Shown: positions 39,029-42,698 of the stretch, one piece after another | Numbering within the stretch: position 1 is the first letter of the stretch | Layout of the letters: every line of letters begins with the position of its first letter | NCBI GenBank assembly: GCA_947500585.1 | Contig: CANMSN010000012.1 | Span: 1-64,000, forward strand | Direction of reading: 5' to 3' | Length of the DNA stretch: 64,000 nt | DNA from: an uncultured Flavobacteriaceae bacterium | GTDB taxonomy: Bacteria; Bacteroidota; Bacteroidia; Flavobacteriales; Flavobacteriaceae | Translations under genes and position numbers: made by a program | Notes under the pieces: model-generated | Databases searched by the model: none | The model's input: the letters and a program-made list of their open reading frames with translations, nothing else | What the model was told of the DNA's origin: nothing

Positions 39029-39853
39029 ATGAAACAATATCACGACCTAGTAAAACACGTTTTAGAAAACGGTAATGAAAAAGGAGACCGAACAGGCACA
39101 GGAACAAAAAGTGTTTTTGGATACCAAATACGATTCGATTTAAGCGAAGGGTTTCCCATGGTAACCACAAAAAAACTACATTTAAAATCTATAGTTTATG
39201 AATTGCTTTGGTTTCTAAAAGGTGACACCAATATAAATTATTTAACCGAAAACGGTGTGCGCATTTGGAACGAGTGGGCTGATGAAAACGGGGATTTAGG
39301 GCCTGTTTATGGCCACCAATGGCGGAACTGGAACAGCGATGAAATTGACCAAATAAAGGAGGTTATTCACACACTAAAAAACAACCCAAATAGTAGAAGA
39401 ATGCTGGTTTCTGCATGGAACCCTTCCGTACTTCCTGATACTTCAAAATCTTTTGATGAAAATGTAGCAAATGGTAAGGCAGCACTTCCACCATGTCATG
39501 CGTTTTTTCAATTTTATGTGGCTAACGGTAAGTTATCTTGCCAACTTTACCAACGTAGTGCCGATATCTTTTTAGGAGTGCCTTTCAATATTGCATCATA
39601 TGCCTTATTTACTATGATGATGGCACAAGTTTGCGGTTATGAAGCTGGAGAATTTATTCACACATTTGGTGATGCTCATATTTACAGCAACCATTATGAG
39701 CAATTGGAATTACAACTTTCAAGAGATGTAAGACCGCTTCCAAAAATGATTTTAAACCCAGAAATTAAAGATATTTTTGATTTTGATTTTGATGATTTCA
39801 CTTTAGTAGATTATAATCCGCATCCACATATAAAAGGTGTTGTGGCTGTGTAA
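39029..39853 (+). CDS. thyA: Thymidylate synthase
   Basis: 274 residues, close to the usual 264. Catalytic Cys156 is in [11 protein letters not shown]; other motifs are [39 protein letters not shown] and [10 protein letters not shown]. It methylates dUMP to dTMP using methylene-tetrahydrofolate and yields dihydrofolate. The dihydrofolate reductase domain that recycles this product is encoded 650 bp downstream in the same direction. A strong terminator follows at once, so thyA is its own transcription unit. Confidence 0.97.
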
Positions 39854-39909: not shown

Positions 39910-40206
39910 CTAAACATTTACTACACTGTTATCAGCAGATGCAAAATCGTTCCATACATAAGCATCGGCAGCGTCATCATTAACATAAGCACCGTCAACT
40001 ATATATTTATACTCATAAGTATTATTAGAATCTAAGTCTACTGTACCTTTAAAAGTTCCATTTTTTAATTTTTTAAGTGGAGTTGCTTTAGCATTCCATT
40101 TGTTAAAGCTTCCAACTACAGAAACTTTTTTCGCATCTTCAGCTAGTATAGAAAAAGTAACTTTACAAACTGGTTTGCTTTTTAAATATTGTTTTTTAAG
40201 AGCCAT
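39910..40206 (-). CDS. Small glycogen-binding (CBM48/AMPK-beta-like) domain protein
   Basis: 98 residues from MALKKQYLKSKP; 21 upstream codons in the open frame are discarded because they contain the probable promoter. Single early-set domain: VTFSILAEDAKKVSVVGSFNKWN, then TPLKKLKNGTFKGTVDL and YEYKYIVDGAYVND with the conserved Trp/Lys glycogen-contact positions. There is no catalytic domain and no signal peptide, so it is a free-standing cytoplasmic alpha-glucan-binding module. Role unknown, possibly linking glycogen to regulation or localisation. Confidence 0.8.
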   Translation of the reverse strand: MALKKQYLKSKPVCKVTFSILAEDAKKVSVVGSFNKWNAKATPLKKLKNGTFKGTVDLDSNNTYEYKYIVDGAYVNDDAADAYVWNDFASADNSVVNV

Positions 40207-40236
40207 AATTAAAATGTGTTGAGTTGTTTTACCATA

Positions 40237-40412: not shown

Positions 40413-40426
40413 CGCAAACGTTTGCG
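40413..40426. promoter_or_regulatory. LacI-family-type operator palindrome
   Basis: CGCAAACGTTTGCG is a perfect 14-bp palindrome with central CG, the form bound by LacI/GalR regulators (the E. coli PurR box has the same core). It is a G/C-rich island in AT-rich intergenic DNA, 207 bp upstream of the CBM48-like ATG and 82 bp upstream of the 2TM-DHFR ATG. No LacI-type gene is in the window. Confidence 0.5.
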
Positions 40427-40507: not shown

Positions 40508-41419
40508 ATGTTCGGAAAAAAGAAAGCATCTCCTCAAATAGATAAAGACCAATTAGAGCTTATTGAAAACGCTCAAAAACGTATTAAACAGAAAAAACGT
40601 TTATACATTCATTTTGTTATTTTTTTAATTGGAGCCGTATTTTTAATACTTGCAAATACTGTTTTAGGCATTGGTAAAGAATTCACCATTTTAGGTAAAG
40701 AATGGTTTCTATTTGCTATACTTATTTGGCTTTTCCTTTTTGTGTATCATGTTTTTAATGTTTTTGTTACACAAAAATTTATGGGTAAAGCATGGGAAAA
40801 ACAACAATTAGATAAACTCGTTTCAAAACAACAAGTTCGTATTGAAAAACTAAAAGCAAGCTTTGTAAAAGAAGAAACTTTAATAGCGCAAAGCAAGGTT
40901 TATAATGAAATTAAATCAAACACTAAAAGATCTGAACTCACCATTATAGTAGCCGCTGCTGAAAACGACGCCATTGGAAAAGGTAATAAATTAATTTGGC
41001 ATTTAAGTGATGACTTAAAACGTTTTAAAAGTTTAACTAACGGACACCATATTATTATGGGGCGTAAAACCTTTGAGAGTTTCCCTAAACCTTTACCAAA
41101 TAGAACGCATGTGGTTATAACCAGACAAGCAGACTATAAAGCTCCTGATGGCGTTATTTTAGTTAATAGTTTAGAAGATGCTATTGATGCTGCTAGAAGT
41201 GACAACCAACCGTTTATAATTGGTGGCGGGCAAATTTACAAACAAGCCATGAGCATTGCAGATAAAATAGAGTTGACTCGTGTGCATCATGATTTTGAAG
41301 CCGACACGTATTTCCCGAAAATTGATCCAACAGTTTGGAAAGAAACAGCAAATACTTTTCATAAAAAAGATGAAAATCATGACTATGAGTTTTCGTTTAT
41401 TACTTATGAGAGAAAGTAG
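40508..41419 (+). CDS. folA: Membrane-tethered dihydrofolate reductase (2TM domain fused to DHFR)
   Basis: 303 residues in one uninterrupted frame. Residues 1-30 are charged; two transmembrane helices lie at about 31-52 and 66-88 (2TM-like domain); a charged helical linker spans about 90-142; DHFR covers 143-303. DHFR motifs: LTIIVAAAENDAIGKGN, IWHLSDDLKRFK with catalytic Asp169, HHIIMGRKTFESF, RTHVVITR, FIIGGGQIYKQAM and the EADTYFP strand. No ATG, GTG or TTG occurs near the DHFR start, so a separate soluble enzyme is not obviously made. With an even number of helices the DHFR should face the cytoplasm at the inner membrane. It regenerates tetrahydrofolate for thyA. Confidence 0.9.
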   Translation: MFGKKKASPQIDKDQLELIENAQKRIKQKKRLYIHFVIFLIGAVFLILANTVLGIGKEFTILGKEWFLFAILIWLFLFVYHVFNVFVTQKFMGKAWEKQQLDKLVSKQQVRIEKLKASFVKEETLIAQSKVYNEIKSNTKRSELTIIVAAAENDAIGKGNKLIWHLSDDLKRFKSLTNGHHIIMGRKTFESFPKPLPNRTHVVITRQADYKAPDGVILVNSLEDAIDAARSDNQPFIIGGGQIYKQAMSIADKIELTRVHHDFEADTYFPKIDPTVWKETANTFHKKDENHDYEFSFITYERK

Positions 41420-41894: not shown

Positions 41895-42305
41895 TTACAC
41901 TTCTAAAATGATACTTGTTTTAGTTGATCCATATTGAGACATCCTTTCTAAAAAAGCAATAAGATGCCTATTATTTTTAAAATAGCCTAAAATACATATA
42001 CAATCATCACCAGTTATTCTATCACAACTTTGCACTTCTTCCATCTCACGTATTTTGTCTAAAATACCTGATGTTTCTGTTAGTCCTAGGTGCATCACTA
42101 ATGTTATATACGCTTTAGTCTCTACACCTAATTTTTCATGATTTACTTTTAAAGCATAACCTTCTATTATACCTTCTTCTTCCATTTGCCTAACGCGTTT
42201 GCCAATAGCAGGAGCTGATAAACCAACTTCTTTTCCAATATTAGCAAAGCTTTCCCTAGAATTAATTTTCAGCATTTCTAGTATCTTTTTATCTAACACA
42301 TCCAT
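41895..42305 (-). CDS. Lrp/AsnC family transcriptional regulator
   Basis: 136 residues, slightly short for the family. The N-terminal helix-turn-helix spans about 1-60 (LDKKILEMLKINSRESFANIGKEVGLSAPAIGKRVRQMEEEGIIEGY) and the C-terminal RAM effector domain about 65-136 with ITGDDCICILGYF. These proteins sense amino acids or related small ligands and often repress their own gene. A palindrome overlaps its promoter, and a SemiSWEET-like/GNAT operon diverges from it, making that pair the likely target. Confidence 0.9.
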   Translation of the reverse strand: MDVLDKKILEMLKINSRESFANIGKEVGLSAPAIGKRVRQMEEEGIIEGYALKVNHEKLGVETKAYITLVMHLGLTETSGILDKIREMEEVQSCDRITGDDCICILGYFKNNRHLIAFLERMSQYGSTKTSIILEV

Positions 42306-42461: not shown

Positions 42462-42698
42462 ATGAATCCATTTTTAATAGATTGTATTGGTTACGGAGGT
42501 TTAGTGATAAATTTATATTCTATGTCTACTAAAGGCGAATATAAGTTAAGGCTAGTTTCACTCATTGCTAATATAATTTACATTTTATATGGCGTATTAA
42601 TTAGTGCAACTCCTATAATTGTTGGATGTGTTATAGCTGTATTGCTTCATGGTTATCACATAAGGAGGTTACGAATAAAAAAACATAGTAATGATTAA
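42462..42698 (+). CDS. Three-helix membrane protein, SemiSWEET/YgjV-like
   Basis: 78 residues forming three predicted transmembrane helices (about 4-20, 30-46, 49-67) and a basic cytoplasmic tail (RRLRIKKHSND). The pattern GYGGLVINLYSM, then IIYILYGVLISATPIIVGCVIAVLL resembles a single SWEET-type triple-helix bundle or the YgjV family. Such half-transporters work as homodimers. The transported molecule is unknown; Lrp control in the divergent gene suggests an amino-acid-related compound. It overlaps the GNAT gene by 8 bp. Confidence 0.55.
   Translation: MNPFLIDCIGYGGLVINLYSMSTKGEYKLRLVSLIANIIYILYGVLISATPIIVGCVIAVLLHGYHIRRLRIKKHSND

Follow-up and report, generated by a model that had tools for sequence, protein, structure and literature searches.

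The window analysed here is the whole 64,000-nucleotide stretch presented above, and positions 40508-41419 of its forward strand are one open reading frame of 303 codons (303 aa). Two Pfam domains, and no others, exceed their cut-offs on the encoded chain. The 2TM profile PF13239 matches residues 20-105 (window 40565-40822, + strand) over positions 1-78 of its 79, with an E value of 1.2e-21 and 77 bits against a curated cut-off of 24.8, and the DHFR_1 profile PF00186 matches residues 144-302 (40937-41413, + strand) over positions 2-159 of 159, with an E value of 5.4e-63 and 211.9 bits against a cut-off of 25; a thymidylate synthase domain is absent. The open frame, both Pfam domains, and hydropathy bear out the original prediction of a continuous frame that runs from a two-helix part into a complete dihydrofolate reductase (DHFR) with its Asp169. 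In a Foldseek search with a structure model of moderate quality, the best match was 8f09 (E value 5e-18, TM-score 0.75 by target length), and all 50 matches listed were DHFRs.

The DHFR catalytic acid, Asp169 (41012-41014, + strand), which corresponds to Asp27 of the E. coli enzyme, is an Asp in all 54 fused genes and all 44 split relatives (separate 2TM and folA genes) described below. Twelve active-site positions were checked in these sequences, and ten were invariant in 54/54 fused and 44/44 split genes (Trp164, Asp169, Phe173, Thr177, Arg186, Arg199, Gly239, Gly240, Tyr244, and Thr257); the Asp, Trp, Phe, Thr, Gly-Gly, and Arg positions are the catalytic acid and the cofactor and substrate residues. 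Gly241 is present in 52/54 fused and 42/44 split genes. The twelfth position, residue 170 (41015-41017), which matches Leu28 of E. coli DHFR, a residue lining the folate site, is Leu in 51/54 fused and Phe in 40/44 split genes.

A search of the genome (74 contigs, 3.76 Mb, 99.97% complete) with the PF00186 profile matched the fusion gene alone and thus found no second DHFR gene. ThyX gave no match in the genome, and the ThyA encoded in the window is an enzyme that converts methylene-tetrahydrofolate to dihydrofolate; the cell should consequently need a DHFR, and its gene content indicates that the fusion is very probably the housekeeping one. A separate soluble DHFR had been named as the observation that would overturn the original prediction. 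No second PF00186 gene supplies one, but a cleaved or internally initiated product of the fusion itself may still do so.

The thymidylate synthase gene thyA precedes the fusion on the same strand (39029-39853, +; PF00303, E value 1.2e-122), and an opposite-strand gene intervenes. The latter (39910-40209, - strand), divergent to the fusion, encodes a 99-aa protein, counted from an inner ATG, with an AMPK1_CBM/CBM_48 domain of the glycogen-binding type; a similar-looking gene precedes folA at one other locus (L089). The divergent intergenic region contains a perfect palindrome, CGCAAACGTTTGCG, at 40413-40426, 95 bases upstream of the fusion start. It resembles a LacI-type operator, but perfect palindromes of 14 bases are not in themselves rare; this one has a single genomic copy and occurs at 1/54 fused loci, the window's own. 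On the other side, 41895-42305 (- strand) has by eye the look of an Lrp/AsnC-type regulator, and beside it 42462-42698 (+ strand) encodes a membrane protein of 78 aa whose match to YgjV is weak and below threshold.

Predicted membrane anchor and linker

Hydropathy predicts two charge-free membrane-spanning helices, at residues of about 34-53 (40607-40666, + strand) and about 67-87 (40706-40768, + strand), joined by a 13-residue loop and reaching peak 19-residue values of 2.63 and 2.32, respectively. The 33 residues preceding the first helix contain ten Lys and Arg and four Asp and Glu, the 33 succeeding the second contain eight and three, and the loop contains two of each kind. The positive-inside rule is an established predictor of membrane protein orientation and, with the K/R-rich flanks lying outside the helix pair, both termini should be cytosolic. 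The two helices are predicted to pair as a hairpin whose ends both face the cytosol, which would place the DHFR domain in the cytosol at the membrane. An AlphaFold2 model, moderate in quality (mean pLDDT 72.8, pTM 0.57) and computed from 33 fused sequences, consists of two long helices (residues 13-51 and 66-129), a low-confidence linker (121-140, pLDDT below 50), and the DHFR domain.

By alignment identity and model pLDDT, residues 88-142 (40769-40933, + strand) are a Lys-rich helical extension followed by a variable linker. In the alignment of 33 fused sequences (A1; the window plus 32 of 51 fused loci, those with organism names), mean identity is 38% over residues 117-142 versus 80% in the DHFR part; the 2TM segments average 74-90%, and the loop between the helices 54%.

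The original prediction stated that no alternative start lies near the DHFR domain. This was correct for residues 109-153, the linker and the beginning of the domain, where the window gene has no in-frame ATG, GTG, or TTG, but Met92 (40781-40783, + strand) is an in-frame ATG, just past the second helix and about 50 codons ahead of the DHFR domain. Almost invariant across the 33 fused sequences, it is one residue of an FMGK-W motif within the 2TM part.

Fused, split, and anchor-less loci in the Flavobacteriaceae

The state of the locus in related genomes, which the original prediction had singled out as informative, was determined in a family sample of 120 genomes, one per genus, 118 of which gave a match: 54 carry the fusion, 47 have separate but adjacent 2TM and folA genes, and 17 have no 2TM upstream. 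Loci were read in 110 of these (54 fused, 44 split with the 2TM gene just upstream of folA, and 12 without a 2TM within 900 bases), and the remaining eight comprise three split and five without 2TM. The G031 locus was counted as split, despite a listed open frame of 323, because a TGA separates its two genes. Another collection of 58 loci contains 51 fused, four split, and three without 2TM, although its genomes partly overlap the 120-genome sample and it was searched with the fusion as query, so that fused relatives are favoured; named fused relatives include Algibacter, Flaviramulus, Tamlana, Hyunsoonleella, Olleya, Bizionia, Mariniflexile, and Confluentibacter, and two of the split loci are labelled uncultured Croceitalea. 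Unbroken fusions in 54/120 genera and in 51/58 loci of the partly overlapping collection rule out a sequencing frameshift or assembly artefact, the artificial joining of two genes that had been held up against the original prediction.

Among the matches listed and the loci checked, the architecture was found in this family only. Among the matches listed from an order sample (246 genomes) and a phylum sample (296 genomes), ten and six, respectively, were unbroken and full length, the window's own included in each case, and all came from Flavobacteriaceae. A 2TM gene beside folA was absent in 12/12 genomes checked outside the family but within the order, and no membrane segment precedes DHFR in 18 other-family loci chosen from the order and phylum listings for long open frames around DHFR (highest 19-residue hydropathy 1.39). 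Both listings stop short of the weakest matches, and a fusion of DHFR to a very different anchor could escape them. None of the best 5000 plasmid records covers 80% of the fusion, nor do any of 1672 phage records. Within the window's own genome, three other 2TM domains lie on one strand at G000:C4:80223-81118, one of them in a 453-codon frame and none adjoining a DHFR; this cluster is possibly the regulator-linked 2TM group. Only two of the three match the 2TM of the fusion, at 25-32% identity, and the latter belongs to the folA-linked 2TM group.

At the split loci, the stop codon of 2TM and the start codon of folA overlap as ATGA in 21/44 cases and by one nucleotide in three more; the other junctions are mostly 15 bases or shorter, and 4/44 lack an in-frame ATG in the stretch scanned. 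Such gene overlaps usually mean translational coupling, and their frequency suggests that 2TM and folA are probably coupled in this way. The alignment column of the folA start contains Met in 27/44 split genes and in 0/54 fused genes, where 52 have another residue and two are gapped (reading Val and Cys), so that separate initiation at the old folA start was abandoned in the fused genes; an internal start at that Met was rejected for the same reason. At several loci (L060-L062, L072, L200, and L285), 2TM and folA are in frame with a single stop codon between them, and further candidates of this type appear among the search matches. These loci are either near the fused state or carry a trace of fission. 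Another locus, L097 (G020), lacks 2TM, and its folA begins with ~30 extra residues that resemble a left-over linker; it looks as if a fused gene had lost its anchor.

The DHFR-only tree, with two starred among 107 inner branches, was too weak for counting events, and rpoB was used instead. The rpoB set was hand-picked and covers 80 of the 110 genomes: every one of the 64 rows in the mixed portion of the DHFR tree, plus 16 of the 46 rows in its fused-rich portion. G003, for which rpoB gave no match, and G079, whose match was partial, were removed, so that 78 family and six outgroup sequences (84 rows) entered a quick tree; a careful tree of 77 rows also omits the long branches G129, G035, G023, G055, G120, and G116, together with G010, a fused row likewise judged long. 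The fused label requires nine changes on the quick tree, eight of them forced by well-supported branches, and eight on the careful tree (8-9 in 5-95% of bootstraps), where all of these counts also cover transitions between fused and no-2TM states, i.e., losses of 2TM. The locus has changed repeatedly between fused and adjacent genes within one bacterial family. If 2TM was ancestral and never regained, the careful tree demands at least 11 events, six losses and five fusions or fissions. Forbidding fission gives six fusions and six losses, and forbidding fusion gives six fissions and six losses; because these minima are equal, fusions and fissions cannot be separated by the trees. In both rpoB trees, the main fused clade includes two genomes, G046 and G092, whose detectable 2TM has been lost.

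The original prediction gave neighbouring 2TM and folA genes as the probable source of the fusion. The 47/118 genomes in which the two are separate and adjacent agree with that origin, but a single arising is too simple for a label that changed at least eight times. The three fused rows with Phe170 (G042, G118, and G010) are positioned among split rows in the tree, which fits independent fusions. Residue 170 itself was considered and rejected as a marker of the fused versus split state, as the Leu/Phe pattern follows the tree.

A probable tethered DHFR and the alternatives

We consider it likely that the gene makes the housekeeping DHFR as a single polypeptide anchored in the cytoplasmic membrane. 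The Lys-rich helix and flexible linker would keep the DHFR domain against the inner face of the membrane, where it would reduce dihydrofolate with NADPH in the ordinary way. The 2TM protein may be a dedicated companion of FolA in Flavobacteriaceae: in split species its product may bind FolA and bring it to the membrane, and in fused species the same tethering would be covalent. Possible benefits are nearness to another membrane process, control of enzyme stability or amount, and assembly with a partner. The anchor is not indispensable, since 17/118 family genomes have no detected 2TM and DHFR thus works without one. We offer only tentatively the broader proposal that Flavobacteriaceae regenerate tetrahydrofolate at the membrane, the folA-linked 2TM serving as a DHFR tether that is non-covalent when split and covalent when fused, and that has switched between these forms several times because both do the same job.

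A less likely but serious alternative is that 2TM is a passenger. The two genes would be operon neighbours for an unrelated reason, and loss of the stop codon would fuse them where they overlap and yield a tethered DHFR that is tolerated; the fusion could in that case be a neutral outcome. Overlapping junctions would indeed ease fusion mechanistically, the linker is variable, and the 17 genomes just mentioned manage without an upstream 2TM. However, the fused or adjacent pair is kept in 101/118 family genomes, and the fused 2TM segments, the loop excepted (54%), reach a mean identity of 74-90%, similar to that of the enzyme (80%). Moreover, all 54 fused genes lack Met at the old folA start, and repeated fusion of identical partners would usually signal a shared task.

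It is improbable that the fusion is instead a precursor, most of the working DHFR being soluble after a protease cut in the linker or initiation at Met92, although either process could release soluble enzyme. The low-confidence, variable stretch of residues 121-140 would suit a protease, but visual inspection of the linkers of the 33 fused sequences revealed no conserved cleavage motif. The ATG at 40781 would suit initiation, and its Met is nearly invariant in the same sequences; this Met is, however, a residue of the 2TM motif, and it is also found in four of six split 2TM proteins read (L061, L072, L200, and L285), where it precedes no fused DHFR. Closer to the enzyme, 12/54 fused genes, the window's not among them, have an in-frame ATG between codons -20 and +4 relative to the beginning of DHFR, and the other 42 have none.

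Very unlikely is a reading that takes up the original prediction's "perhaps with the thymidylate synthase encoded next door", namely that the anchor places DHFR in a membrane-bound complex with ThyA: 19/23 fused loci have thyA no more than about 2.5 kb upstream, but it is about as often near at no-2TM loci (8/11) and less often so at split loci (11/44), these fractions being confined to loci where 2.4 kb or more of upstream sequence was available (31 fused and one no-2TM locus with less flank being uncounted), and nearness therefore does not track fusion; in the window an opposite-strand gene separates the two, and ThyA matches its own Pfam domain only, with no anchor or extra domain. The link, for which chromosomal distance is the sole argument, is thus unsupported, and we retain the anchored single polypeptide as the preferred reading.

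Relation to known systems

The fusion shares its fold, active-site residues, and full-length domain with FolA (PF00186; B. subtilis 8uvz, 8f09, 1zdr). Of the best 60 PDB chains listed, 59 have 157-182 residues, the other being a 553-residue chain named sfGFP, and these 59 match the fusion from residue 142 or later; the fusion differs in the 143 residues that precede its DHFR domain, with their two predicted helices. Bifunctional DHFR-thymidylate synthase, which occurs in protozoa and plants, is likewise DHFR fused to a second part, but the partner there is an enzyme of the same pathway, whereas here it is a membrane anchor. The human de novo thymidylate complex (SHMT1, DHFR, and TYMS) is tied to the nuclear lamina, and DHFR is thus also held at a structure, but non-covalently and in a eukaryote, and no homology is claimed. 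The 2TM-DHFR architecture is presumably listed in domain databases already. The protein called 2TM in PMC9425974 is a different one. No description of a 2TM-DHFR, or of a natural membrane-anchored DHFR, was found in the open-access papers searched. Neither domain is new in itself, and the enzyme is of the usual kind; the novelty lies in where it is predicted to sit and in its recurrent fusion.

Trimethoprim and methotrexate act on DHFR, which textbooks present as a soluble enzyme. The fused, split, and anchor-less forms within the Flavobacteriaceae are a natural series in which the location of the enzyme can be set against folate metabolism, enzyme level, and antifolate response, and through its linkage to DHFR the 2TM domain acquires one concrete setting tied to an enzyme.
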